The translations under genes were made by a program, and so were the position numbers. From Pseudoduganella lutea (GTDB taxonomy: Bacteria; Pseudomonadota; Gammaproteobacteria; Burkholderiales; Burkholderiaceae_D), in NCBI RefSeq assembly GCF_004209755.1, contig NZ_CP035913.1, forward strand, positions 682,001-746,000: 64,000 nt of DNA. Reading direction: 5' to 3'. This document shows, piece after piece, positions 47,173 through 62,565 of this stretch (position 1 is its first letter; each line of letters begins with the position of its first letter). The notes beneath the pieces were generated by a model. The model was given only the letters and a program-made list of their open reading frames with translations. It did not search any database and had not been told where the DNA came from.

Positions 47173-49128
47173 TTAGCGGTCCGCGATCGCCACGCCTTCC
47201 CGGTGTCCGGCCAGGATGGCGAGGATCTGCTCCACGCTGACCGGCTTGACCAGGTGTTCCTCGAACCCCGCCTCGAACGCCAGGTCGCGGTCCTTCTGCT
47301 GCCCCCAGCCGGTCACGGCGATCATCATCGTGCGCCCCAGGGCCGGCACGGCGCGCAGCGCCCGTGCCAGGTCGTAGCCGTTCAGGCCCGGCAGGCCGAT
47401 GTCGAGGAATGCAAAGTCGGGCGCGAAGCCTTCGGCCGCGGCCAGGGCCTGGGGACCGTCGTGGCACACGTGGACCGTGTGCCCCAACGTGCGCAGCAGG
47501 CCGCCGATCGCGTTGACGAAGTCTTCGTTGTCGTCCACCAGCAGGATGCGGTAGTGCCGGTCGCCGGCCAGGCCCGGTGCCGGCCGCTCCGCGGCCTGCG
47601 GCACTTCGGCCAGCACCGGCAGCGTCACGGTAAAGGTGCTGCCCTTGCCCTGCCCTTCGCTGGCCGCTTCCAGCGTGCCGTCATGCAGCTCGACCAGCCG
47701 GCGCGCCAGCGACAGCCCCACGCCCAGCCCCTGGCTGGAACGCTCCAGGGAAGCATCGGCCTGCACGAACATCTCGAAGATATCGGCCAGCATGCCCGGC
47801 GCGATGCCGATGCCGTCGTCGGCCACGCAAATGTGCAGGCGGCCCTCGGCGCCAACGTCCGCCGACAGCACGATATGGCCGCCATGCGGCGTGTAGCGGG
47901 CGGCGTTGTTCAGCAGGTTCGACAGCACCTGGGCGAGCCGCGTGGTGTCGCCCAGCAGGTGGACCGGCCCGGGCGGCAAGTGCACGGCCAGGTCGTGGCC
48001 CTGCGCATCGATGAACGGGCGGGCGATCTCCAGCGCGTTGGCGACCACGGCATGCAGTTCGAGGTTTTCGCGACGGATCGTCAGCTTGCCGGTATTGATG
48101 CGGGAAACATCGAGCAGGTCGTCGACCAGGCGCACCATCTGTTTCAGTTGCCGTTCCATCACACCGCGTGCCCGCAGGCTGGCCGCGGGATCGCCGCCGT
48201 TCAGGCGCATGATGTCGAGCCCCGTGCGGAGCGGCGCCAGCGGGTTGCGCAGTTCGTGCGCCAGCGTGGCCAGGAATTCATCCTTGCGGCGGTCCGCCAG
48301 CAGCAGTGCGCGTTCGGCGCCCTGGCGCACGGCCATCTCGCGTTCCAGCGTGAGGTTCGCTTCCTGCAGCGCATTGGCGCGGCGGCCGATCTCGGCCAGC
48401 ATGTCGTTGAAGGCATCGACCAGCGTGCCGATCTCGCCACTGTGGCGCGCGCCCTTGCCGCCTTCCGGGTAGGACGCGCCATGCAATTCATCATGATGGT
48501 GCTCGACGCGCAGCGAAAAGTCACGCCGCTGCATCACGGCGCGCGCCACTTCCGTCACCGCCCGCAGCGGCCGCGTGATCGACTGCTGCAGGCGCGTCGC
48601 CACCACCGCCGCCAGCAGCAGGCTCGCCATCGTGACGACACCGAGTATCGTTGCGTAGCTGACCAGGCGCTCCATCAGGCGATAGCGCGCGCTCAGGTAG
48701 ACGGTGCCGACACGTTCGCCGTTTTCCATGATCGGGTGATACACCACCATCCGGCCACCCTCGACGGCCGGGCCCGGCGGGCCAGGGCGGGCAGGCAGCG
48801 GCGGCACGTCGGCACCTGCCTCGGCATAGGCGGCGAAGATCGCACCGTTGGCGGCATAGATGGCGCCCTGCTGGATCTGCGGCCGTACCCGCAGCAGCGC
48901 CAGGTTCTGCCGCGCCGCGGCGGGATCGTTGAAGCCCACCGCGGGTGCCGACACGGTCGCCACGATCTCGGCCTGCGTGGTCAGGTCGTCGATCCAGTTC
49001 TGCTGGAACGTCGTCAGGTCGTACACCAGCATGCTGATCGACGTGGTGAGCAGCGCGGCGAACGTGGTGGCGAGCGCCATTGCCACCAGTTTCGCGCGCA
49101 CGCTACCGGAGTGGAGACGGGACAGCAC
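47173..49128 (-). CDS. Hybrid sensor histidine kinase (CHASE8-HAMP-HisKA-HATPase-REC)
   Basis: A 651-residue membrane kinase. GTG 49128 is the start, overlapping the stop of the YfiR gene (TAGTG). Order: TM1 about 14-36, periplasmic CHASE8-like sensor about 40-150, TM2 about 158-178, HAMP about 180-255, HisKA with H291 ([13 protein letters not shown]), HATPase, and a C-terminal receiver with D576 (FLDIGLPG) and the lysine in LVKPVS. No separate response regulator is adjacent. Together with the YfiR-like and TonB-receptor genes it forms an operon. Confidence 0.9.
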
Positions 49129-49742
49129 TAGTTCCCCTTCTGCACGTGCCAGGCCACCGACAGCAGGCGCGAACTGAGTTTCAGGTTGCTGCGCTCCGCG
49201 GCCGGCAGCGATACCTCGAAGCGCACGCGGTCCTCGACGATGCGGAAGTTGATCACGGCGCCATGCTGCAGGCCGTTCTCGTCGTCGGCCACGCCGAGCG
49301 CGCCGTTCTGCGCCGCGCTGCGCAATACCTTCGGCAGGTCGGTCGCCGTGCCGGCATACAGCATCTGCAGGCCGGCCACCGGCTCGCCCTCGCGCAGGCT
49401 GCGCACGGCGATCGGCCGGCCGTTGACGGTGCGCCCCGCCGTGATGCGCGACAGTTCGGCGGCCACGTCTTCCGCGCCGAGCACGCCGACGGTGAGCGGA
49501 CTGCCGCTTTCCGCGCCCTCCCTGGGCGCCAGGAAGTCCACGTAGCCGAGAAACTTGAACAGGTAAGCGGCCTTCACGCTGCGCTCCAGGTTCGGCATGG
49601 CAGGCGCGGCCGTCTGGCCCACGGCTGCCCCGCTCATCGCCAGGCACAGCAGGGCGAGCGCCAGCACCAGGAGCACGGAAAGCCAGCCCGGCCAGTTGTG
49701 CGGGGCCGTCCGGCGGCAGGGTTCGATCGCGAGTGGCGTCAT
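49128..49742 (-). CDS. YfiR-like periplasmic protein
   Basis: A 204-residue exported protein of the YfiR family (small periplasmic regulators known from the YfiBNR system, where YfiR inhibits the cyclase YfiN). Signal region about residues 20-42 (LSVLLVLALALLCLAMSGAA); body starts with SVKAAYLFKFLGYVDF and contains LTVGVLGAEDVAAELSRI. Start ATG 49742, one base after the stop of the TonB receptor gene. Its stop overlaps the kinase start, so here YfiR probably acts on a kinase sensor instead of a cyclase. Confidence 0.82.
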   Translation of the reverse strand: MTPLAIEPCRRTAPHNWPGWLSVLLVLALALLCLAMSGAAVGQTAAPAMPNLERSVKAAYLFKFLGYVDFLAPREGAESGSPLTVGVLGAEDVAAELSRITAGRTVNGRPIAVRSLREGEPVAGLQMLYAGTATDLPKVLRSAAQNGALGVADDENGLQHGAVINFRIVEDRVRFEVSLPAAERSNLKLSSRLLSVAWHVQKGN

Positions 49743-49743
49743 G

Positions 49744-51693
49744 TCAGAAACGGTAAGTAAGCCTGAGCACGGCGGTACGCTCGAACACGCTCCGGTTCGG
49801 CGCCGCTCCGAACTCGGGGTGGGACCGGTGCAGCAGGTTCTGGCCGACCAGCGCAAGCTCGAGGTTGCGCGTGGCCTTCCAGGACCATTGCAGGTCCAGT
49901 TCGTTATACGAGGGCACGGCCGGGCGCGGCAGCGCGCCGACCCTGCGCAGTGTCCAGTCCAGCTGCATGTCGTTCGGCAGGTCATGCGACGAACGGAGCT
50001 GCCAGTAATGGCTCGGGTCCGCGCCGATCAGGTCCACGCCGCCGGTCGGGTCGCGGCTCTCGGGCCGCAGCGCCGTGCGCACGCGCTGCACCACGAGGCC
50101 GCCATCCAGGCGCCAGCCATCCGCCGGCTGCCAGCGCGCCCACATTTCCACGCCGCGCGTGTGGCCATAAGCCAGGTTGCGGTATTCCGCCAGCCCGCTG
50201 TACGCGGGGCCGTCCGGATTCGGCTCCTGCGTGCGCAGGCGGCCGTACCTCGCGGCGAACGCCGTCACCGAATAGGACAAGCGTGGCGTGGGCTGGATGC
50301 GATAGCCCAGCTCGACCACCCGCGCCGTCTCCGATTCGAATGCGGGCCCGCCGGACAGGTAGCGCGGCACGCCGGCAATGATCAGGGGCTGTGCCGGGGC
50401 ATACCGGTCGCGGTCCACGCGCGACGGCGCGCGTACCGTGCGCGCCAGGTTGCCCCACACCAGTTGGCGGCTGTCCGGCGTCCACGCCAGCCGCAAACCC
50501 GGCAGCACCTCCGCGCCCGTGTAGTGGTTGTGCTCCACCTTGATGCCGGCCGTGAACCGCAGGTCGTCGCGCAATGCCACCTCGTCCTGCGCGAACAGGC
50601 CGCCCCAGTGCATCGTCAGGTCGTTCGGCAGGTACACCTGGGTGCGCCCCGTGGTGATGCGGTCGCGCGAATGCCGGTAGGTTGCACCCCATGTCACCTT
50701 GTGGGGCATGGCGGAATCCGTCGCCACCCGCAGGCTGTGCTGCGCTTCCAGCTCGACCGTGTCGAGGCGCTCGAAGATCGCGTTCGGCTGATTGCGCTCC
50801 GTATGGTCGAGCACCACCTGCAGGCGCACGTTCGAATCGTCCGACAGCCGGCGCGTGAAGCGGGCCACCAGGTTGGCGCCCGAAATCTGCGCCGCGCCCG
50901 TGCCGCGCTGCGCCAGGTTGCCCTCATAGACATCGCCCGACAGGGTGAGACCGCCGCGCGAGCGGTCCCAGTCGGCGCGAAAGCCCGCCTGGCGCCGCGT
51001 GTAGCCACTGGACGCACTCCCGGTGTCGCGCACCGCATCGTCGGCATCGGCATAGCGCGCATAGATGCGGTAATGGCCGCCATTCGGCAACGCGCCGCCG
51101 TAGCGCACACTGCCCTCGCGGTCATCCTTGCCGAACGCACCCGCCAGCAGGCCGCCCTGCGTATCCTTGGCCGAGCGCGTGATCACGTTGATCACGCCAT
51201 TCACCGCGTTGGCGCCCCAGATCGTGGCGCCGGGACCGCTGATCACCTCGATCCGCTCTACGTCTTCGAGCAGCATGTCCTGGATGTCCCATGCCACGCC
51301 GGAAAACAGTGGTGTGTAGAGGTTGCGGCCATCGACGAGCACGAGGAGCTTGTTCGATTGCAGGCTGTTGAAGCCGCGCGCCGTGATCGCGTAGTTGCGT
51401 GCATCCACGCGCGCCACCTGCAGGTTCGGAGCCAGGCGCAGTGCCTCGGGCAGCGTGCGTGCGCCGCTGCGGCGAATCTCGTTGCCCCCGATGATGTAGA
51501 TAGACGCCGACGCATTGCCAAGCCGTTCTTCCTGCCGCGAGACGGACGTGATGACGATGTCGCTCAATTGCTCGAGCGACAGCTCGGCAATATCGTCCTG
51601 CAGCGGCGCGGCGCATGCCGGTCCGCCCGCCGCCAGGAGGCAAGCCGCGACCGGCGCCCAAATTGTCAACGGACCTCTTTTGATTGGTCTCAT
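49744..51693 (-). CDS. TonB-dependent outer-membrane receptor
   Basis: A 649-residue receptor with signal peptide (residues about 1-28) and a plug domain: ELSLEQLSDIVITSVSRQEERLG is a TonB-box-like start, then NEIRRSGARTLPEALRLAPNL and GPGATIWGANAVNGVINVITR are the classical plug motifs. The 22-strand barrel follows to the C-terminal phenylalanine (VLRLTYRF). Ligand unknown. It is the first gene of the operon with YfiR and the hybrid kinase, so it might sense as well as import. Preceded by an AT-rich stretch (51700-51780) that can hold the promoter. Confidence 0.88.
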   Translation of the reverse strand: MRPIKRGPLTIWAPVAACLLAAGGPACAAPLQDDIAELSLEQLSDIVITSVSRQEERLGNASASIYIIGGNEIRRSGARTLPEALRLAPNLQVARVDARNYAITARGFNSLQSNKLLVLVDGRNLYTPLFSGVAWDIQDMLLEDVERIEVISGPGATIWGANAVNGVINVITRSAKDTQGGLLAGAFGKDDREGSVRYGGALPNGGHYRIYARYADADDAVRDTGSASSGYTRRQAGFRADWDRSRGGLTLSGDVYEGNLAQRGTGAAQISGANLVARFTRRLSDDSNVRLQVVLDHTERNQPNAIFERLDTVELEAQHSLRVATDSAMPHKVTWGATYRHSRDRITTGRTQVYLPNDLTMHWGGLFAQDEVALRDDLRFTAGIKVEHNHYTGAEVLPGLRLAWTPDSRQLVWGNLARTVRAPSRVDRDRYAPAQPLIIAGVPRYLSGGPAFESETARVVELGYRIQPTPRLSYSVTAFAARYGRLRTQEPNPDGPAYSGLAEYRNLAYGHTRGVEMWARWQPADGWRLDGGLVVQRVRTALRPESRDPTGGVDLIGADPSHYWQLRSSHDLPNDMQLDWTLRRVGALPRPAVPSYNELDLQWSWKATRNLELALVGQNLLHRSHPEFGAAPNRSVFERTAVLRLTYRF

Positions 51694-53429: not shown

Positions 53430-53759
53430 TTACTTCGCCCGTGCCGGCGGCCCCGGTTCGACCAGCACCAGCTTGCCCGTCTTCGGATCGCGGTACACTT
53501 CGCCGACCCGGTCGTAGCCGCTGCCGGCCTGCGTCACGCCGGCGGCGGGCCGCTCGATCTGCCGGCCCTTCTCGACCGGCTGCGGTGCCTTGAGCGCGCC
53601 TTGGCTGCCGGCGATCGCGGCGATCAGGCCGCACGCGAAGACCAGCATCACGTCGACCAGGTTCACGAGGCTGGCGCGCGGGTCTTCGTCGCCGCCATCG
53701 AACCGGGCATCGAGGTGCGAATACAGGCGCAGGCGCTTGCGCGGTGGCCTGGCGCTCAT
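53430..53759 (-). CDS. DUF2149 protein, ExbD-like membrane partner of the CobN locus
   Basis: A 109-residue single-pass membrane protein. The membrane segment SLVNLVDVMLVFACGLIAAI carries an aspartate (D36) in the pattern L-V-D-V-M-L-V, the same as the proton-relay site of ExbD/TolR stator subunits. The C-terminal 60 residues would lie in the periplasm. DUF2149 is typically found next to a CobN-like chelatase and an ExbB/MotA-type protein, as here. Its start (53759) overlaps the stop of the ExbB-like gene (53756) by four bases. Presumably it couples proton flow to chelatase or transport work. Confidence 0.75.
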   Translation of the reverse strand: MSARPPRKRLRLYSHLDARFDGGDEDPRASLVNLVDVMLVFACGLIAAIAGSQGALKAPQPVEKGRQIERPAAGVTQAGSGYDRVGEVYRDPKTGKLVLVEPGPPARAK

Positions 53760-54211
53760 GCCGCCTGCTCCATCGCTTCTTCCATGGCTTCCAGCGTTTC
53801 CTCGTACCAGCGGCGGCGCAGCTTGCCGATCACGAGGCCGGCGATGCCGGCCACGAGTCCCAGCACGGTCGCGTCGAACGCCACGGTGACGGCGCTGGCC
53901 AGCTGCGCCGGATCGCCGGCGCCCAGCGCGGCCAGGCCCGGGCCCAGCGGGATGATCGTCGCCATCAGGCCCAGCATCGGCGGAATCCGTGCCAGCAGGT
54001 CGGCACGTTCCAGGCGGCGGCGGGCGATCGCCTGCACGTGCGCGACATTGCCGCCGGCGCGCAACTTGGGCAGGCCGTGAAACCGTTCACCGGCGGCGAT
54101 GCCGGCCTCGATCACGGCAATGGCGCAGGCCAGCAGCAGCGCCGCCAGCGAGGGCACGAGCAGCCAGCTGACCGCGTCGTGCAGCCAGCCGAAGGAATGG
54201 GGTTCGATCAT
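53756..54211 (-). CDS. MotA/TolQ/ExbB-like proton channel protein
   Basis: A 151-residue membrane protein with three hydrophobic segments: about 18-40, about 74-97 (PPMLGLMATIIPLGPGLAAL) and about 106-131 (SAVTVAFDATVLGLVAGIAGL). The second and third are the TolQ/ExbB signature region, with a threonine/aspartate-containing helix as in proton-conducting stators. Start ATG 54211 with AAGGAG six bases ahead; it overlaps the CobN stop by ATGA. Together with the DUF2149 protein it should form a proton-driven unit for the chelatase. Confidence 0.82.
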   Translation of the reverse strand: MIEPHSFGWLHDAVSWLLVPSLAALLLACAIAVIEAGIAAGERFHGLPKLRAGGNVAHVQAIARRRLERADLLARIPPMLGLMATIIPLGPGLAALGAGDPAQLASAVTVAFDATVLGLVAGIAGLVIGKLRRRWYEETLEAMEEAMEQAA

Positions 54212-57200
54212 GTGAAGCTCCTTGAAGGTTGAGGTACGGCGCGGCCGCGCCACAGGCCCGCCGCGAACAGGGCCGCAAGAACGGCCAGGCAGGCCAGCAG
54301 TCGCGCGACGGTGATGCCGGCCGGCGCCACGGCGGCGGCCGGCTCATGCAGTTCGTAGGCGCGCAAGGCAGGCGCCGCGGCGGCCAGGGCGGCGTCGTCA
54401 GTCTTGTCGTCGGCCGCGCCTTCAGGCTTTGACTGCGGCTGCTGCGGAATTTGCGTCGTGCGGGCTGTGTCCGCACTGCCGGGGACATCAGCCTTGCCAT
54501 CGACATTCGTGACGGCAGGCAACAGGTCGCCGCGCGCCTTGGCCAGCGTGGCGCCGAGCGCCTGCGCGTCGGCGCTGTCCAGCTGCGGGGAAAGCCAGGT
54601 CCACATCGGGTGGTCGGGCGCCGTGTGGCCGCTGCCGGGCAGGCCGTTGGCGGCAACGAGCCTTGCCAGCTCGCCGCCCATGCGCTTGATCGTTTCCGGG
54701 TCGGTCTTCCAGAAGCCCTTTTCGGCGGCGACCATGAAGATCGCCAGCATGTGCGCCTTCACGTGCGCATTGTGGCGCTGGCCGAGGAATTGCGGCAGGC
54801 CGAGCCCGTGCCGGTCGTCGAAGTAGACGGACTTCACTTCATCCCACGCCCAGTCCTTGACGAGGTCCGGGCGCGTTACCTGCCAGCCCCACAGGTTTTC
54901 CAGGAATTCCTGGCCCATCGTGCGTGCCCCTGCATAACCATGACCCATCAGGGGTTTCAGCCATGCCGGGTTCAGGAAACGGCCGCGCAGCTCGCCCAGC
55001 AATGCGGCCGCCAGCGGTTCCACATCCGCCCGGCCGGGCTGCGCATGCTGCAGGATCAGCGCGTCCGGCACGCGGCCGGTGCGCCCTTCGACGGCCAGCG
55101 ACAGGCCGCCCAGGTAATCGAACGCGTCGTTGTTGTCCAGCAGGCCGTACAGGTTGCTGGCGCGGCCGTGGTAGGTGCGGGCGATGCCGTCCAGCGCCGC
55201 GTCGAAGGCCGCATGCTGCGCTTCGCCGCTGCCGTCGAGGCCATACGCATGCCCCATGCGGTTGCGGTAGGCGGCACCGATGTCATCGCGCTCGCGCCAT
55301 GCGCCGGAGCGCTCGGTCAGGCGGTTCACACCCGTGCCATAGGCGCCCGGCGCATCGCCGAACACGCGCTGCGCGGCGCCCCGCCCCGCTTCCGCCACCG
55401 GCAGGCCCGCGCGTACCAGTGCGCGGTGGCGGGTCAGCCATTCGCCGGCCACGCGATTGCCCGCCACCGGTTCGTCACCCCACGCGGCACCGCCGAGTGG
55501 TGCCAGCGCGGCTTCCAGCGCTTCGCGCAGTGCAGGATCCTGCGCCACCAGCGTATCGGCCGATGCGGCGAGCGCCAGCCGGCCGGCGCGGTCGATGAGC
55601 CGGATCAGGTTCGGGTACAGGTCGCGGAACAGGCCGGACGTGGTCACCAGCGCGTCGCGCCGCGGCGCCCCCGGTTTCAGCTGCACGCCGGTGACGATGC
55701 CGCGCGCATTCCACACGGGCTCCGCCCCCATCATCGCCAGCGCGAACGCCACCATCACGCCTTCGTCGCGCACCGCGTCAGAGGCCCACAGGATGATGCC
55801 TTCGCTGCCCTGCGCCGCTTTCGCGTCCCCTCGCGCGCGGGCGATCGCCTTGTCCGCCAGGTTCGCGCCGAGCTGGTAGCCGAGCTTCGTGGGCAGGATG
55901 TCGCCATCGACCGCATGGAAATTGCGCCCCGTCGGCAGCGCCTCGGGCGAGCGCAGCGGGTCGTTCCCCTTGCCGGGTTCGATGTAGCGGCCGTCGAGCC
56001 CCGCCAGCAAGGCCCGCATCTCCAGGCGCGGCGAAGCGGTCAGCTTCGCGGCGACCTCTGCGCTCACTTCCTGGCCGTCGACGCCCCCCTTCTTCATCGA
56101 CGCGAGCATCAGGTCGATCGAGTCCTTCTTCCACGGCCGTCCGAAGATGTGCAGCCCGTGCGGCATGAATTTCTCCTGCAGCTTCGTCAGGTAATGGCCG
56201 ATCTCGTGCGCCAGCAGATCGTCGTCGGCCGCGTCGTAGCCGATGCCGCGCACCGCCAGCACGTCGGCCATCGATGCTTCCAGTTCCGCCTTCAGGTTCA
56301 GCGCCACCACGCGTTCGCGCATCAGGCTGGCCGCCTGCGTCTTCAGCGATTCGGAGTTCGCCGCCTCGTAGCTTTCCACCACCTGGCGCAGTGCCAGCAG
56401 GTCGTCGTACAGCGGCGTGCTGGCCAGCGGCGGCGTCAGGTGATCGACGATCACGGCCAGCCCGCGCCGCTTGGCCTGCGTGCCTTCGCCGACGCCGTCC
56501 ACGATGTACGGATAGATGCCCGGCAGGTCGCCGGCAATCAGGCTGGGATAATCGTCGCTTGCCAGGCCGACCGCTTTGCCCGGCAGGAATTCATAGGTGG
56601 AGTGGCGCCCCACGTGCACCAGCGCGTCGGCCTTGAAGCGGTCGCGCACCCAGTGGTAGAAGCCCAGGTACTGGTGCGGCGGCGTGATGCTGGTGTTCGC
56701 GTGCAGCAGTTCCTCGTCCACTTCCCAGCCGCGCGGCGGTTGCGGGCCGATGAAGACGTTGCCGAACACGAGTCCCGGCACCAGCATTTTCCCCGAGTCG
56801 ACCATGATCCTGCCTGGCGCGTTGCCCCACCCTTTCAGGCCTTCGATGCCGTAGCCGGCGAGCTTGCTCGCAAGCGGCGCCAACGCCTTGCAGCGGCGCG
56901 GCGCGCGCACGTCCAGGCAGGCGCGGTAGCCGTCGCCCAGCGCCGCCAGGTCGCTTATCGCCGCTTCCCGCTGCGGGTGGTCGGCCCCCTCGACGAGGTG
57001 CTGCAGCTCCTTGACGATCACGTCCACCTGCTTGCGGCCCAGCACCCACTCGCCGGCTTTCTCGGCCTCCAGCACGTCCGCATGCAGGCGCCCCAGCAGG
57101 CCGCTCGTCATCTCGTTCTGCACGCGCGGCGACAGCGTGGCGAACCACTTGCCGTAGTCGGCCGCGCTCACGGTATTGACGGTGCCGGCCAGTTCGCGCA

Positions 57201-58677
57201 GGGCGGCCCGGTCTTCCGGCAGGTTGACCCCATGCGCCATGATCCGGTCCAGCAGCGCTTCCGGCGATGCGGGCAGTTCGCCCACGGTATAGCCGGCATC
57301 CTTGAGCGCATGGAGCATGTCGAACAGCGAGGCCGGCACGTCCAGGTTGTCGGCACCGATGTTCTGGCGACCCGGCGGGTGGTTGTAGTAGATCAGCGCC
57401 ACGCGCTTGTCGCGGTTGGGCTTGTCGCGCAGCGCCAGCCAGCGCACGACGCGGGCCGCCAGCCGTTCCGCTTCCGCGTCGAGCATGACCGGCGGCCGGT
57501 TCTCGATGCCGGTCGCCTTGTCCCGCTGCGCATTGCCCAGCGCGGCCACCACGATCGGCTGGCCGATGCCCTGCAGTTCCGGCAACGCCACGCGGTATTG
57601 CACGGAGTCCGGCGGCAGGCCGTCCGGCGACAGGCGCCATTGCAGCGCCGTGCGGTCGGACAGCCGTATGCCCTTGAACACGGGAATATCGAGGCATTTC
57701 AGCGCCTCGGCGACGGCTTCGCGCCCTTCCGCCGCGCCCACCACGAAATCCTGGAGCACCACGAGCGCCGCCGGCCGCGCCGGGGCGAGCAGTTCAGGCA
57801 GCCGCTCCAGCGCCTCGCGCGACGCGCCGCCCCACCGCGTGAGGACCTGCACGCAGGGCTGGCCAGCCGCTTCGATGCGCGCACACACGGCGGCCGGCAC
57901 GGCGCCATCCATGTTCGACAGGTCCAGCACCACCACGGCGGCCTGCGCCTTCAACCCCAACTGAGCGCCATTGCCCCACGCGGCGGCGTCAAGCAGTTCG
58001 CGCCGCCCCACGCGCACGCGCAGCGTCGGTTCCGGTTGCGGGGCGGCCAGCGGCCTGGCGGGATGGAGGCGGTGCGCAAACAGCGCCGCGGTATTGTCGA
58101 CGCCGCCGGCCTGCCATACGCGGCGCGCGGCCAGCCAGCCCGGCGCCGCCGGATGCGCCTGCGCGGCCTGCAATGCCGCCGCCGGCGGCGTCTCGGTGGA
58201 CAGGTCACGCAGCGTTTCGGCGGGAAAATCGCGCATGGCGCCCTGCGCATCGCGGCTCATCAGGCTGAGGCCCGCATCGCCATTGAACGCCAGCACGACC
58301 GTGCGTGGCTTCGCATGGCGTGCCAGTGCCGCCTTCAGCCGCGCGGCCGGGTCGCCGAACAGCGAAACGGCCAGGATCGTGTCGGCCCCGCCGACGAGCC
58401 GTGCCACATCGCGCTCATCCAGCGCCATCCATTGCGCCGGCGTGCGCAGCACGATGCGGTCCTTCGGGTGCAGGGCCAGGTGGCGGTGCGCCGCCTCGAT
58501 CGCCACCGGGGCGGCACGCTCCGTGACGATGGCGAACAGCGTGGCGGCATGGCCGCGCACGCAGGCGAGGATGCACAGCAGCGCAAGCAGCGCGCGCAAG
58601 AATGGAGAAATGCTCAAAAGTAGGAACCGGCCGTGAAACGCAACAGGCCAGGCCACACCCCGGGCCCGGCACATCAT
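54208..58677 (-). CDS. Secreted, membrane-anchored CobN-like chelatase
   Basis: A 1489-residue protein related to cobaltochelatase CobN and the Mg-chelatase H subunit: family segments such as DLPGIYPYIVDGVGEG and VHVGRHSTYEFLPGKAVGL are visible. Unlike cytoplasmic CobN it has a hydrophobic leader (FLRALLALLCILACVRGHAA) and a C-terminal membrane helix (about 1457-1475, followed by RGRAVPQPS), so the bulk should sit in the periplasm. CobS/CobT ATPases are not encoded nearby; instead ExbB-like and DUF2149 genes follow by overlaps. A cobalamin riboswitch lies directly upstream. ATG 58677 is the first start but lacks a ribosome site; a later start is possible. Resembles HmuS-type dechelatases as well as B12-linked CobN homologs. 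Confidence 0.82.
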   Translation of the reverse strand: MMCRARGVAWPVAFHGRFLLLSISPFLRALLALLCILACVRGHAATLFAIVTERAAPVAIEAAHRHLALHPKDRIVLRTPAQWMALDERDVARLVGGADTILAVSLFGDPAARLKAALARHAKPRTVVLAFNGDAGLSLMSRDAQGAMRDFPAETLRDLSTETPPAAALQAAQAHPAAPGWLAARRVWQAGGVDNTAALFAHRLHPARPLAAPQPEPTLRVRVGRRELLDAAAWGNGAQLGLKAQAAVVVLDLSNMDGAVPAAVCARIEAAGQPCVQVLTRWGGASREALERLPELLAPARPAALVVLQDFVVGAAEGREAVAEALKCLDIPVFKGIRLSDRTALQWRLSPDGLPPDSVQYRVALPELQGIGQPIVVAALGNAQRDKATGIENRPPVMLDAEAERLAARVVRWLALRDKPNRDKRVALIYYNHPPGRQNIGADNLDVPASLFDMLHALKDAGYTVGELPASPEALLDRIMAHGVNLPEDRAALRELAGTVNTVSAADYGKWFATLSPRVQNEMTSGLLGRLHADVLEAEKAGEWVLGRKQVDVIVKELQHLVEGADHPQREAAISDLAALGDGYRACLDVRAPRRCKALAPLASKLAGYGIEGLKGWGNAPGRIMVDSGKMLVPGLVFGNVFIGPQPPRGWEVDEELLHANTSITPPHQYLGFYHWVRDRFKADALVHVGRHSTYEFLPGKAVGLASDDYPSLIAGDLPGIYPYIVDGVGEGTQAKRRGLAVIVDHLTPPLASTPLYDDLLALRQVVESYEAANSESLKTQAASLMRERVVALNLKAELEASMADVLAVRGIGYDAADDDLLAHEIGHYLTKLQEKFMPHGLHIFGRPWKKDSIDLMLASMKKGGVDGQEVSAEVAAKLTASPRLEMRALLAGLDGRYIEPGKGNDPLRSPEALPTGRNFHAVDGDILPTKLGYQLGANLADKAIARARGDAKAAQGSEGIILWASDAVRDEGVMVAFALAMMGAEPVWNARGIVTGVQLKPGAPRRDALVTTSGLFRDLYPNLIRLIDRAGRLALAASADTLVAQDPALREALEAALAPLGGAAWGDEPVAGNRVAGEWLTRHRALVRAGLPVAEAGRGAAQRVFGDAPGAYGTGVNRLTERSGAWRERDDIGAAYRNRMGHAYGLDGSGEAQHAAFDAALDGIARTYHGRASNLYGLLDNNDAFDYLGGLSLAVEGRTGRVPDALILQHAQPGRADVEPLAAALLGELRGRFLNPAWLKPLMGHGYAGARTMGQEFLENLWGWQVTRPDLVKDWAWDEVKSVYFDDRHGLGLPQFLGQRHNAHVKAHMLAIFMVAAEKGFWKTDPETIKRMGGELARLVAANGLPGSGHTAPDHPMWTWLSPQLDSADAQALGATLAKARGDLLPAVTNVDGKADVPGSADTARTTQIPQQPQSKPEGAADDKTDDAALAAAAPALRAYELHEPAAAVAPAGITVARLLACLAVLAALFAAGLWRGRAVPQPSRSFT

Positions 58678-58682
58678 TGCAA

Positions 58683-58872
58683 ACGGCCGGTCTTCTGGCT
58701 TGCCATCGTTCTTGCCGGCTCATGCCTTCCCGTGCGCGGCACAGTGGCGGTGGAACCGGTTCGTCTGGCTTACAGCAGCGGGGGCTGCGCCGGACTGGCG
58801 GGGGATGGAGATCCCCCGCGTCACCGGCTTCCCGTTTCACCCTCGCGCCGGCAGGCGGGAGGGCACCGTTTA
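58683..58872 (-). ncRNA. Cobalamin (B12) riboswitch upstream of the CobN-like gene
   Basis: Read on the minus strand: GGTGCC (58862-58867), GAAACGGGAAGCCGGTG (58822-58838), the CCCCCGCTGCTGTAAGCC stretch (58768-58786), GCCACTG (58742-58748), and the B12 box AGCCAGAAGACCGGCC (58685-58700). These are the conserved pieces of the cobalamin aptamer in correct order. The B12 box ends only a few bases before the first ATG of the CobN-like gene, so adenosylcobalamin probably blocks its translation. Confidence 0.9.
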
Positions 58873-58921
58873 CTCGAGACGGGATTCTACCTGCAAGCAA
58901 GCCGCGCTGTCACCGCCCCAT

Positions 58922-60298
58922 TTAGTCGGCGCCCTCCACGCGCAGGCGACGCAGCCCCACCAGCCCCGCGCCCAGCACGACGCCTGCCAGTACGAACACA
59001 GCGAACACGTCGCCCCATGGCACCAGCGGATCGGCCGCGCGCGGCGCGAACGCCGGCCGCTTGCCGAAATCCTCCGTCCCGAACGGCCGCTCATTGAACA
59101 GGTACGGGTAGTAGAACGCGCGGATACGGCGATGGAAGGCCGCGATCTCGTCTTGGTAGGCCAGCTGCGCCGGCAGGTCGGTATCGGCGAGGCGGTGCAG
59201 CACGGCCTGCGCTCCCACGCCCGGCAGCAGCCAGCCGAGCCGCCCGGTCCATGCCTGGCGCGCCAGCAAGCCTTCGCGGTAGTCGCGCACCTGCCCCGCC
59301 ACGCTTTCGTCACCCACCTGGTGGAACGCGAAATACCATTTCCAGTGGAAGCCCGGCGGCACGTGCGCCTTGTCGCGCCATTCGGGGTGGCTGGCGACGA
59401 ACTTGCGCATCGTTTCATCGCGCGGCACTTCCCACGCGCCATGCACGGTCTGCCGCTGGGCCAGCATCAGGTCCACGCCCTGGTGCACCGGGATCGCGCG
59501 CACCAACGCCACGTTGGCCAGGGCCGGCAGCACGAGCGTCAGCACGGCCCAGGTGCCCATCAGCGTGGTGGCATTGGTGACCGAACGCCAGCCGCGCGCG
59601 GACACGACCATCGACAGCCCCGTCCAGAAAGCCAGGTAGGCCGCGATCAGGATGAGGACAACGGCAAGCACGATGACGAGTGCCACGACGCCGGTGCCGG
59701 ACAACACCGCGCCGGCGCAGGCGGGAACGGCCAGGCAGGCGAACAGCAATGCATAGCGCAGCGCCACGCGCCGGCGCCACAGGCGCGCCGCATCGGGCAT
59801 CGCCAGCAGCAGCCGCAGCCGGCCTGCCTGCCGCTCGCCGGACACGAGGTCGTGCAGCAGCGCGATCGCGATCAGCGGCGCCAGGTAGATCAGCACGAAC
59901 GCGAAATCGAAACGGCCCGGCAGCGCGATTTCCGGGTTGAACGTCTCGCCCTCGTAGAGCTGCGCCTGCAGCCCCAGCGCGCGGATACGCAGCACGTAAG
60001 GCGCCACGTCGCGCAGGCCGAGCGCCAGGAAGGCGGCATCCGATGGCGCATCCCACGTGTTGTAGAACGTGTAGTAGGCCGGATTGCCGGCATCCTTGCT
60101 GGCCGGGTAGCGGGCCGCCAGCGCGGCCACGTCCTGTTCGTGCAGCGGCGCCAGGCGCGCGATGGTCTGCCGCTGGCGTTCCACTTCCTGCATGCCCGAC
60201 CAGACGGCCAGCGTGGACAACAGCAACAGCAGCAGCAAGGCTGCGATGGACAGCCGCGAGCGCACGATCAGGCGCAGTTCGAAGGTGAGCCGGCTCAT
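58922..60298 (-). CDS. ABC-2 type permease (DUF3526-like), second of the pair
   Basis: A 458-residue membrane protein: first helix about 20-35 (SIAALLLLLLLSTLAVWSGM), a long extracytoplasmic loop of about 130 residues, then a cluster of five helices in residues 160-290 and a last helix near 430. The block LIYLAPLIAIALLHDLVSGERQAG is the ABC-2 permease motif (LxxDxxxxERxxG). It pairs with the next upstream gene and an ATPase as a heteromeric exporter. Start ATG 60298 overlaps the stop of the other permease (ATGA). It ends 49 bases before the cobalamin riboswitch region of the CobN operon, so the riboswitch separates two transcription units. Confidence 0.82.
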   Translation of the reverse strand: MSRLTFELRLIVRSRLSIAALLLLLLLSTLAVWSGMQEVERQRQTIARLAPLHEQDVAALAARYPASKDAGNPAYYTFYNTWDAPSDAAFLALGLRDVAPYVLRIRALGLQAQLYEGETFNPEIALPGRFDFAFVLIYLAPLIAIALLHDLVSGERQAGRLRLLLAMPDAARLWRRRVALRYALLFACLAVPACAGAVLSGTGVVALVIVLAVVLILIAAYLAFWTGLSMVVSARGWRSVTNATTLMGTWAVLTLVLPALANVALVRAIPVHQGVDLMLAQRQTVHGAWEVPRDETMRKFVASHPEWRDKAHVPPGFHWKWYFAFHQVGDESVAGQVRDYREGLLARQAWTGRLGWLLPGVGAQAVLHRLADTDLPAQLAYQDEIAAFHRRIRAFYYPYLFNERPFGTEDFGKRPAFAPRAADPLVPWGDVFAVFVLAGVVLGAGLVGLRRLRVEGAD

Positions 60299-61746
60299 CG
60301 CACCGCCCTCCCCAGCCGGCCGGCCAGCAGCCAGGCCAGCGCGCCCAATGCCGTCAGCCACAGCGCCAGCGTGGCGCCGGCCGGCGCGGCGCGGCGCAGC
60401 GTGTCGGCCAGCGGCGCCGGTTCGTAGCGGAACGCCGGGAACCCCTGCCAGTGCTCGCGCGACACGCGGTTTTCCTTGCTCCGGTCGATGTCGTCGGCAT
60501 AAGCGAGCTTCTCCGCCTGGAGACGGTTCAGTCCCTGGATCAGCGCATAGCGATAGCGCTCGCCCTGCTCCAGGAAGCTGCGGTAGCTGGCCAGGTCTGT
60601 GCCGGCCGCCGTCATCGACAGGCGCCGCAATGCCAGCGCCGGGCTGGCCCAGCCGAAGGCGTCGATGATCTCGGCCTGGCGCTCCTGCCGGTCGAACGCG
60701 GCGGCCGCGTAGCGGTTGAACAGGTCGCTGGACTTGCGCTCGCCCTCCATGCCCACGACGCCCTTGAAGTTCACGGGCAGGTCTTCCACCCGAGCCACGC
60801 CATATTGCTTGAGCAGCCTGTCGCGGAACGCGGCGAATTTCGGATCGTTCGGATCGTGCGAATCGCCCAGTGCCAGGTACTCGCGCTGCACGTGGATCGC
60901 GTCCTCGAAACGGGTCGGCAACGCCACCGCGGTATTGGCCATGTCCGGCACCCAGCGCGGCAGCAGGATGACGATCACGGCCCACGCGGCCAGCAGCACC
61001 AGCAGTGCATCGCGGCCGCGCGCCACGCACATCGACACGAGCACCACGCCCAGCACCCACAGCAGCAGCCAGGCGGCATAGCCGGCGGCCAGCACGGTGG
61101 CCAGTGGCCAAGGCGCATGGCCGGCGGCGGCGAACCAGGCCAGCGCGGCCAGTGCCGGCAGCAGCGCCAGGCCGGCGAAGCCGGCCAGCGCCAGCAGCTT
61201 GCCCAGCACCACCTCGCGGCTGCGCACCCCCTGCGCCAGCAGCACGCGCAAGGTACCCGATTCGCGCTCGCGCGCCACGGCGGCGTGGCCGAAGAACACC
61301 AGCAGCAGCGGTGCCAGCACCTGCAGCACGAAGGCAGGCGTCAGCTGGCCGAAGCGCAACAGCAGCGAGGTTTGCCGCACGTCGCCGAAGTTGGCGCTGT
61401 TCTGCCGGTGCCCCTCCAGGAACAGCGTGTTGCCGGTGAAGCCGTCGATGCCGGGATCGAACGCGGCCAGCGGATTCAGGGGGCGGAACAGGAAATGCCC
61501 GTAATGGACCATGCGGTGCGGATGGCGATCCGGCTGCGCTTCGAATTCATGGTTGGCCTGCACCTGGTAGCGGGTCCGCTCGGCGTCGGCATTGCGCTGG
61601 TGCTCGTGGGCGGTCATCGCCGCCACCAGCATCAGCACCGTCAGCAGCAGCAGGCCTGCCACGGCCGCGCGGTCGCGGAACAGCGCCCGCCATTCCTCGC
61701 GCGCGATGCGGGTGATGCACGAGAATGCACTTCGGGCGGCGCTCAT
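60295..61746 (-). CDS. ABC-2 type permease (DUF3526-like), first of the pair
   Basis: A 483-residue paralog with the same layout: helix about 28-43 (AVAGLLLLTVLMLVAAM), loop of about 120 residues, helices about 155-265 and a terminal helix about 455-475 (GATLALWLTALGALAWLLAG). The motif HAAVAREREGSTLRVLLAQG-like segment (AVARERESGTLRVLLAQGVR) matches the ABC-2 signature. Start ATG 61746 overlaps the ATPase stop (ATGA). Together the two permeases and the ATPase form a tight operon; exporters of this type are often found beside TonB receptors in iron-regulated loci. Confidence 0.82.
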   Translation of the reverse strand: MSAARSAFSCITRIAREEWRALFRDRAAVAGLLLLTVLMLVAAMTAHEHQRNADAERTRYQVQANHEFEAQPDRHPHRMVHYGHFLFRPLNPLAAFDPGIDGFTGNTLFLEGHRQNSANFGDVRQTSLLLRFGQLTPAFVLQVLAPLLLVFFGHAAVARERESGTLRVLLAQGVRSREVVLGKLLALAGFAGLALLPALAALAWFAAAGHAPWPLATVLAAGYAAWLLLWVLGVVLVSMCVARGRDALLVLLAAWAVIVILLPRWVPDMANTAVALPTRFEDAIHVQREYLALGDSHDPNDPKFAAFRDRLLKQYGVARVEDLPVNFKGVVGMEGERKSSDLFNRYAAAAFDRQERQAEIIDAFGWASPALALRRLSMTAAGTDLASYRSFLEQGERYRYALIQGLNRLQAEKLAYADDIDRSKENRVSREHWQGFPAFRYEPAPLADTLRRAAPAGATLALWLTALGALAWLLAGRLGRAVR

Positions 61747-62504
61747 GCCGCCAGGGCGCCGTAGCGGCGGTGCAGCGAACGCACATCGAAGCGGTCGGCG
61801 CCGGTGGCCGCGACTTCCTCGAGCAGGCGGCCGGCATCGAGGAAGCCGATGCGGTCGGCCACGTCGGCGGCGCTGAGCAGGTCGTGCGTCACCATCAATA
61901 CCGCCACGCCCTGGGCGCGCAGCACGCCGAGCAGGCGGTTGAATTCCGTGGTGGCCTGCGGATCGAGGCCGGACGTGGGCTCGTCGAGCAGCAGCGCCGG
62001 TACCTTGCGGGCCAGCGCCAGCGCGATCGCCACCTTTTGCCGCATGCCCTTGGAAAAGCCCGACACGCGCCGGTCGAACGCGGCGGCGGCGAGGCCGGCG
62101 GCCGCCAGCGCATTATCGATGGCCGCGATGGCCGCGTCGGCAGCGCCATCGCCGCGCTGCCCCGCCAGGTCGAGCAGGTACGCCACGTTTTCACGCGCGG
62201 TGAGGTGTTCGTACAGCGCCACGTTCTCGGGAATGTAGGCGAGGTGGCGCCGCGCCTCGTCCGGCTGTGTCGCGGGATCGATGCCGTTCACGCGCACCGT
62301 TCCCGCGGCCGGCGTGACGAAGCCGAGGAAGAGGCTCAGCGTGGTGGTCTTGCCCGCGCCGTTCGCGCCCAGCAGCGCGTAGATCTCGCCCGGGCGTATG
62401 TGCAGGTCGAGCTGGCGCAGGATGGTCTTGCCGCCATAGCCGGCGACGACCGCCGTGGCTTCGAGTACGTGGTCCGGCAGGGCCGTGCCGTGCGTGATGT
62501 TCAA
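61743..62504 (-). CDS. ABC exporter ATP-binding protein (TTG start)
   Basis: A 253-residue ATPase of the ABC-2/CcmA-like class. Walker A GANGAGKTTT near residue 42, the signature VSGFSKGMRQKVAIALAL (one residue off the canonical LSGGQ, as in this class), Walker B LLLDEPTSGLD, and H-loop MVTHD. Start is TTG 62504 with a strong AAGGAG six bases upstream; upstream ATG frames have no ribosome site and overlap the palindrome. It is the first gene of the operon with two ABC-2 permeases. A Fur-like 20-bp palindrome lies 62 bases before the start, suggesting iron control. Confidence 0.85.
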   Translation of the reverse strand: MNITHGTALPDHVLEATAVVAGYGGKTILRQLDLHIRPGEIYALLGANGAGKTTTLSLFLGFVTPAAGTVRVNGIDPATQPDEARRHLAYIPENVALYEHLTARENVAYLLDLAGQRGDGAADAAIAAIDNALAAAGLAAAAFDRRVSGFSKGMRQKVAIALALARKVPALLLDEPTSGLDPQATTEFNRLLGVLRAQGVAVLMVTHDLLSAADVADRIGFLDAGRLLEEVAATGADRFDVRSLHRRYGALAA

Positions 62505-62565
62505 GCGATTCTCCTTCGATTGGAAAGGCATGGCCAGGGCGACACTGCCGCCCGGCACCGACACA

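Follow-up and report, generated by a model that had tools for sequence, protein, structure and literature searches.

Corrinoid salvage, not ring synthesis, is the genomic setting of a predicted exported CobN-family protein with ExbB-like and DUF2149 partners

Class I chelatases such as CobNST and ChlHID are driven by AAA+ ATPases. What does a CobN-family protein do when it is predicted to be exported and its gene is followed by those of an ExbB-like channel protein and a DUF2149 protein? These three genes, hereafter the trio, lie behind a cobalamin riboswitch in the 64,000-nucleotide stretch of Pseudoduganella lutea DNA analysed here (contig NZ_CP035913.1, positions 682,001 to 746,000; the window). 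We show that the trio is linked genomically to corrinoid salvage and not to ring synthesis. Its physical coupling, ion use and chemistry we infer, and we give an even chance to the explanation that it is a BtuS/HmuS-like periplasmic corrinoid-handling machine, energised or gated by ExbB-DUF2149 and serving salvage. The locus is laid out as follows, in window coordinates.

54208-58677, minus strand: CobN-family gene, from the list of open reading frames (ORFs); the longest ORF has 1489 amino acids, start codon uncertain
53756-54211, minus strand: ExbB/TolQ/MotA-like channel protein gene, 151 amino acids; the ORF is open to 54253
53430-53759, minus strand: DUF2149 gene (HmuV-like, with an ExbD-type transmembrane helix), 109 amino acids, from the ORF list
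58885-58668, minus strand: cobalamin riboswitch aptamer RF00174, 105.5 bits, full length (model positions 1-189 of 189)
58884..58913, minus strand: promoter-like site GTGACA-18-TAGAAT, 10 of 12 consensus matches, abutting the aptamer upstream

The order on this strand is thus riboswitch, CobN-family gene, ExbB-like gene and DUF2149 gene, as the preliminary description of this DNA had reported, and 4-base ATGA overlaps connect the CobN-family gene to the ExbB-like gene and the latter to the DUF2149 gene. The aptamer, whose gathering threshold is 31.5 bits, supports the B12 control proposed there. Since the first ATG of the CobN-family ORF (58677) lies inside the 3' end of the aptamer, the exact CobN start is uncertain. 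The promoter-like site, called by consensus match only, is of a kind expected 0.1 times in shuffled sequence.

We analysed the trio's conservation in the best 80 of 185 relatives from a one-genome-per-species collection. These beta- and gammaproteobacteria include Massilia/Pseudoduganella, Dechloromonas, Zoogloea, Methylobacillus, Methyloversatilis, Stutzerimonas, Zhongshania and others, and their CobN proteins are 44-85% identical to that of the window in the best segment. In 78 of the 80 loci CobN is followed, within one run, by the ExbB-like and DUF2149 genes; both exceptions stand at contig ends, one contig (L067) ending within CobN, the other (L049) carrying a CobN frame that stops early, then an ExbB-like stretch, where it ends. 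Conservation of this arrangement down to 44% CobN identity indicates more than chance. The riboswitch was searched for with an nhmmer model built from the four riboswitches of the P. lutea genome and extended with its hits. In 72 of 80 loci it detected an upstream same-strand element that no oppositely oriented gene separates from CobN (49 directly before CobN, 23 with same-strand genes between). Five of these are weak (L059, L062, L075, L084 and L085; E 8e-10 to 7e-4), and the one in L085 was confirmed by Rfam at 66.1 bits. Rfam cmscan on seven of the eight nhmmer misses (L077 left out) added L063 and L064, bringing the count to 74 of 80; in L056 it found no more than a divergent element, and in L058, L072, L082 and L086 none.

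The genes that share collinear runs with CobN in the 80 loci include CobO (22 loci), BtuB (19), CbiA (19), BluB (12), BtuD (11), BtuC (10), BtuM-like (7) and CobU (7), together with TonB13 (11), PepSY (9) and TonB7 (8). These names come from NCBIfam or Pfam matches of single representatives, several under the NCBIfam cut-off (BtuB 412 vs 600 bits); for BluB the name reflects resemblance (Pfam gives nitroreductase only), and for CobU and others it reflects likeness to clusters. The BtuM-like neighbour matches PDB 8c7p, "Cobalamin ABC transporter", at E 7e-54, an entry that we take to be BtuM-like. In L025 the operon order is riboswitch-BtuB-BtuC-BtuD-CobO-CobN-ExbB-DUF2149. Two more TonB receptor types recur by the trio, one of them often with a PepSY membrane protein (L015:13101-16622; downstream in L019 and L025). 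On the trio strand, 8 of 23 receptors of these two types have a riboswitch-like element at most 400 bases upstream, and the PepSY pair also adjoins a second CobN clade in a B12 operon (L119:597-4287).

Could the trio CobN nevertheless serve B12 synthesis? We searched 50 trio genomes, the window's own and those of 49 of the 80 loci; these are isolates, mostly drafts, which limits every "not found" given here, and the other 31 loci fell outside the set when metagenome-assembled genomes and near-duplicates were dropped. The ring-synthesis gene CbiC was not found in 43 of the 50 genomes and was found in seven. Together with the operon neighbours, this points to periplasmic corrinoid salvage over a B12-synthesis enzyme. 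A gene called cobN is commonly taken as a marker of B12 synthesis; applied to these genomes, it would miscall salvagers as producers. We regard as very improbable the role that the automatic label "CobN" implies, a late cobaltochelatase of de novo synthesis. Family membership and an aspartate shared with CobN (Asp1184, below) speak for it, but the window protein scores far under the NCBIfam cobN equivalog cut-offs (599.5 vs 1619 bits; 513.7 vs 822.05), it is predicted to be exported, and the P. lutea ring pathway has CbiX and CbiD. Because CbiX is an early chelatase, the trio is not expected to cobaltate the ring made there. Harvesting of cobalt from B12 was also considered and set aside, since most trio genomes appear to be without a ring of their own for the metal; cobalamin riboswitches normally turn genes off at plentiful B12, which was counted against it as well.

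In P. lutea, where one CobN-family protein was found, a cluster with CbiM, CbiF, CbiX (Pfam 142.7 bits), CbiC, CbiD and CbiG stands behind its own riboswitch, and a second operon, BtuB-BtuC-BtuD-CobO-CbiA-CobU...BtuF-CobQ, behind another; BtuB, BtuC and BtuF are best-matching families under the cut-off. The cobalt transporter CbiM is thus under riboswitch control, unlike the first genes found in CbiC-less genomes (see below). The fourth riboswitch (C1:5945930) precedes a TonB receptor (L091:2317-4314) 43-54% identical to the type that 12 of the 80 loci have next to the trio.

No CobS or CobT had been seen near the trio, and the whole P. lutea genome gave no match to either, its best ChlI/D-type match reaching 44 bits. 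Among the 50 trio genomes, CobT was found in five and strong CobS in three (504-549 bits, slightly short of the 558.6-bit cut-off), with two more CobS matches at 95 and 117 bits. Strong ChlI/D occurs in two: in G047 it adjoins a CobN without a C-terminal helix, and the G028 genome holds a BchH-like protein. AAA+ partners are thus rare in trio genomes but not nil, and the comparison of genomes with and without CobS/CobT that had been suggested gave no general co-occurrence.

We next consider the CobN-family protein itself, which matches Pfam CobN-Mg_chel over the curated cut-off (825.5 bits) and carries the following features.

58546..58677, minus strand: predicted signal peptide region, residues 1-44 of the longest ORF, ending ...RGHA/ATLF, by hydropathy
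54250..54315, minus strand: C-terminal transmembrane helix, by hydropathy, then a basic tail (RGR)
56602..56604, minus strand: His692 of the longest ORF, motif HVGRHSTYE, equivalent of HmuS His538
55126..55128, minus strand: Asp1184 of the longest ORF, motif DNNDAFDYLGG, at the HmuS His1209 position; Asp also in CobN 9uk9

The leader and the helix were called by hydropathy, without a signal-peptide program. In the window and the 80 loci, a set that includes truncated and over-extended ORFs, 73 of the 81 rows show an N-terminal hydrophobic stretch above 1.6, and 72 show one at the C-terminus. The prediction is thus of an exported protein that its C-terminal helix anchors in the membrane, in agreement with the earlier proposal. 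With two truncated rows (L049 and L067) left out, the motif HxGRHSTxE occurs in 78 of 79 rows, the exception being the ORF used for L036, and DNNDAFDYxGG in all 79.

How close is this protein to HmuS? HmuS is an NADH-dependent heme de-chelatase, predicted to be anchored by N- and C-terminal helices, and HFG(T/A)HG is a superfamily motif whose His is needed in HmuS (PMC12583661). In the trio family this motif takes the form HxGRHST with the His retained; its conservation is not diagnostic of HmuS, as that His is superfamily-wide. Against the PDB, a 30-member family profile (window plus 29 of the 80 loci) scores HmuS highest (514.7 bits), then CobN (486.7) and ChlH (470.9); the window sequence alone gives ChlH 367.7, HmuS 363.9 and CobN 349.0 bits. 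The kinship with the hmu cassette that had been pointed out earlier is borne out by this profile and by the same partners, since hmuYRSTUV includes CobN, ExbB and DUF2149 (PMC10434189). Such likeness could mean that the trio is a de-chelatase of heme or another metalloporphyrin, merely placed under B12 control. We judge this quite improbable: the HmuS heme-site ligand His254 aligns with Glu317 (longest-ORF numbering, in a less certain stretch of the alignment), His1209 is replaced by Asp1184, and the Met-rich insertion of HmuS domain IV is missing by length (59 profile positions vs 264 HmuS residues between the same aligned stretches). The aligned part of HmuS begins beyond its other heme-site ligand, Met79. 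The riboswitch and the corrinoid neighbours, as well as the separate clade described below, also speak against it. Of the earlier interpretation, export, anchoring, partners, B12 control, hmu kinship and scarcity of AAA+ genes are therefore supported, while heme now appears less likely as the substrate, given the changed residues.

The tree was built with a quick method from 45 rows, including 21 of the 81 family rows; it is unrooted, its support is the Shimodaira-Hasegawa-like approximate likelihood ratio test (SH-aLRT) only, the composition of 26 rows is unusual and the PDB rows are incomplete. In it the trio CobN family is one clade (SH-aLRT 100, stem 1.72), separate from HmuS, CobN and ChlH. 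This clade of its own and the tie to corrinoid salvage go beyond the preliminary description. One branch (SH-aLRT 95) divides the CobN and ChlH rows from the clades with ExbB/DUF2149 partners, and because of this division the tree fits a single swap of engine, between AAA+ ATPase and ion motor.

The partnered clades were sampled by searching 398 Pseudomonadota genomes with PF09919. DUF2149 was found in at least 16 genomes, at 17 places; the search is insensitive, having missed the window's own DUF2149, which hmmscan passes, and 16 of 398 is a lower bound. An ExbB-like gene lies within about 1.5 kb at all 17 places, and a CobN-family stretch at 16, CobN being further off in L109. Eleven of the places (group B) were extended for context, and ten of these entered the tree (L113 left out). 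In L118 and L119 the locus is a B12 operon, arranged ExbB-DUF2149-CobN, whose CobN belongs to a different clade; a weaker riboswitch-like hit was obtained in L109, and the other eight have TonB-receptor genes nearby and no riboswitch-like hit. Second CobN-family proteins occur in 12 of the 50 trio genomes. Among 11 such copies from 10 genomes, eight have ExbB-like and DUF2149 neighbours (DUF2149 checked with Pfam in three, the rest by eye), one has a TonB receptor only, one is a CobN beside ChlI/D and one is BchH-like. A C-terminal helix, at a looser bar of 1.3, is present in 20 of 20 group-B proteins and second copies, 16 of which also have an N-terminal stretch above 1.5; it was not seen in the compared CobN (L120), which is followed by ChlI/D-like genes, or BchH-like protein (L121). 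The C-terminal helix thus goes with the ExbB/DUF2149 partners.

What do these partners look like? The ExbB-like protein matches Pfam MotA_ExbB (PF01618) at 34.8 bits (cut-off 22.9), and its AlphaFold2 model has a three-helix fold with a predicted local distance difference test (pLDDT) score of 93.4. ExbB/TolQ entries take ranks 1-45 among the 50 Foldseek matches listed, with E values of 0.0055-0.27 and none below 0.001. The motifs GLMxT and xTVxGL, which we take to correspond to the ExbB Thr148 and Thr181 regions, are both present in 77 of 78 rows; these threonines are termed conserved in ExbB (PMC12215075). The DUF2149 protein matches PF09919 over its curated cut-off (37.8 bits), and its model has a helix at residues 29-53 with a mean pLDDT of only 65.8. 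No Pfam ExbD match was obtained, DUF2149 alone being reported at E up to 0.01. By sequence and model, it shares the ExbD/TolR layout of a single predicted transmembrane helix with an Asp, as first noticed in this locus:

53652..53654, minus strand: Asp36 of DUF2149 (in NLVDVMLVF), candidate ion-carrying residue

Asp36 is invariant in 29 of 29 sequences, and the motif N-x-x-D-x-x-L-V-F is present in 79 of 79 homologues including the window. No TonB or TolA protein was recognised in the set. In two Zoogloea loci another ExbB-like/DUF2149 pair (L027 and L031, about 360-1180) lies upstream of the trio, at a distance of several kb.

HmuU and HmuV resemble ExbB and ExbD (PMC10100974), and a role as Ton energiser has been proposed for them (PMC10100974, PMC12583661). 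By extension, the pair studied here could be a dedicated energiser for BtuB or a second TonB receptor, with the CobN-like protein acting alone. TonB receptors are indeed common neighbours, but the partners track CobN (78 of 80 loci) and not the receptor (BtuB in the run in 19 of 80), and all 10 trio genomes tested also have canonical ExbD-family genes. We consider this explanation unlikely.

Returning to a periplasmic corrinoid-handling machine, the trio would probably work as follows. Scarce cobalamin would open the riboswitch and allow expression. A corrinoid entering via BtuB or a second B12-controlled TonB receptor would then be bound by the CobN-family body, which would sit in the periplasm on its C-terminal helix in the inner membrane, beside ExbB-DUF2149. 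This dedicated unit, probably 5:2 with Asp36 as ion carrier, would replace the CobS/CobT-type AAA+ ATPases, and ion flow through it may, by analogy, drive or gate a conformational change of the CobN body. The corrinoid would be handed to BtuCD or the BtuM-like importer, then to CobO. The likeliest single step, put forward tentatively, is periplasmic metal chemistry on the corrinoid (cobalt insertion into, or metal exchange of, scavenged corrinoids that are metal-free or carry a wrong metal, before import by BtuCD or the BtuM-like protein), suggested because the metal-site His and the CobN-like Asp are kept almost without exception. We rank it ahead of capture and hand-over without metal chemistry, by a binding protein gated by the proton-motive force that passes cobalamin from BtuB to the inner-membrane importer. 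Such a pure carrier, itself a possible but doubtful solution, would suit those operons in which the trio is preceded by BtuB, by BtuCD or a BtuM-like gene, and by CobO, as well as the genomes in which CbiC was not found; however, mere binding does not need the two conserved motifs, and P. lutea has its own BtuF with BtuBCD. A stronger form of metal chemistry, in which the ExbB/DUF2149 ion motor directly powers a periplasmic corrinoid chelatase, that is, a class I chelatase with its AAA+ engine exchanged for a proton or sodium motor, is possible but doubtful; scavenged corrinoids would then receive or exchange their metal outside the cytoplasm, ahead of import.

Several points weigh against the trio as an energised corrinoid machine. 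The occurrence of cobalt-free corrinoids in nature is taken here from general background. The canonical ExbD genes mean that the ExbB-DUF2149 pair is not the sole energiser in these cells, and BtuF is present in the window's own genome. Three trio genomes, G017 (L032), G032 (L057) and G044 (L078), have CobS next to CobT, and in the genomes G017 and G032 no second CobN-family protein was found. None of the first genes behind 28 riboswitches of seven CbiC-less trio genomes (26 of 28 named) is a cobalt transporter. Recombinant HmuS lacking both membrane helices is reported to convert heme when NADH serves as reductant (PMC12583661), so that this reaction does not strictly depend on the partner unit. 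Finally, a B. fragilis btuS1 btuS2 double mutant grows poorly on heme iron and still forms protoporphyrin (PMC6460266), which leaves the role of these proteins unsettled even for heme. As for the 28 riboswitches (L131-L158), four precede ribonucleotide reductase, one MetE and one (L157) a short ORF and a radical-SAM protein; the remainder stand mostly before TonB receptors or the trio.

Other genes of the window flank the trio. An ABC transporter of one ATPase and two DUF3526/ABC2 permeases (58922-62564, minus strand) ends about 36 bases before the aptamer and is probably outside the trio operon. A transporter of the same type precedes the trio in L039 (79-89% match); in L008 the match is 31-49%, downstream of the trio on the other strand. 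The genes at 47173-51693 (minus strand) have no relation to the trio: a TOL_0244-family TonB receptor (NCBIfam 913.6 bits), then a small leader-bearing protein and a sensor-kinase-like protein with a receiver domain (by eye).

If the proposed reading is true, a membrane ion motor, in place of ATPases, would be powering an enzyme that metallates or handles tetrapyrroles, and the trio would supply a part so far missing from B12 scavenging in bacteria. Both claims are open to direct tests through the riboswitch and the one invariant Asp.

How does the trio compare with known systems? Among the literature matches listed (titles and abstract openings), the proteobacterial B12-linked trio is not described; it may be in print elsewhere. 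The nearest system is the HmuS-HmuU-HmuV cassette of Bacteroidota, which likewise joins an anchored exported CobN-family protein to ExbB-like and DUF2149 partners and a TonB receptor. HmuS shares the retained His538 and is the highest-scoring PDB relative of the family profile; the trio differs in its riboswitch and corrinoid-salvage neighbours, its separate clade, the Glu and Asp in place of His254 and His1209, the lack (by length) of the Met-rich insertion, and the absence of a gene between CobN and ExbB, where hmuT stands in hmu. In Bacteroides, a cobalamin riboswitch precedes a few hmu-like operons, whose role may lie in cobalamin metabolism (PMC10100974). The BtuS family, credited to Rodionov 2003, is CobN-like, predicted to be periplasmic and membrane-anchored, and thought to be active in salvage (PMC6460266); HmuS/BtuS are also treated in PMC13227078 and PMC10846266. 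Like BtuS, the trio protein is predicted to be an exported, membrane-anchored CobN-like protein outside ring synthesis, whereas in the available part of PMC6460266 B. fragilis heme iron is the only studied context and neither the proteobacterial B12-operon clade nor its lack of AAA+ partners is described. With the CobNST/ChlHID chelatases the trio shares the protein family, the metal-site His and, as in CobN, Asp at the second site; in contrast, the compared CobN and BchH-like proteins are without the C-terminal helix, and cytoplasmic CobN differs from the trio protein, predicted by hydropathy to have a leader and a transmembrane helix. The ExbB-ExbD, TolQ-TolR and MotA-MotB 5:2 ion-driven units resemble the partners in the ExbB-like motif and fold and in a one-helix partner with an invariant Asp, whereas DUF2149 has no Pfam ExbD match and the trio set no recognised TonB/TolA.

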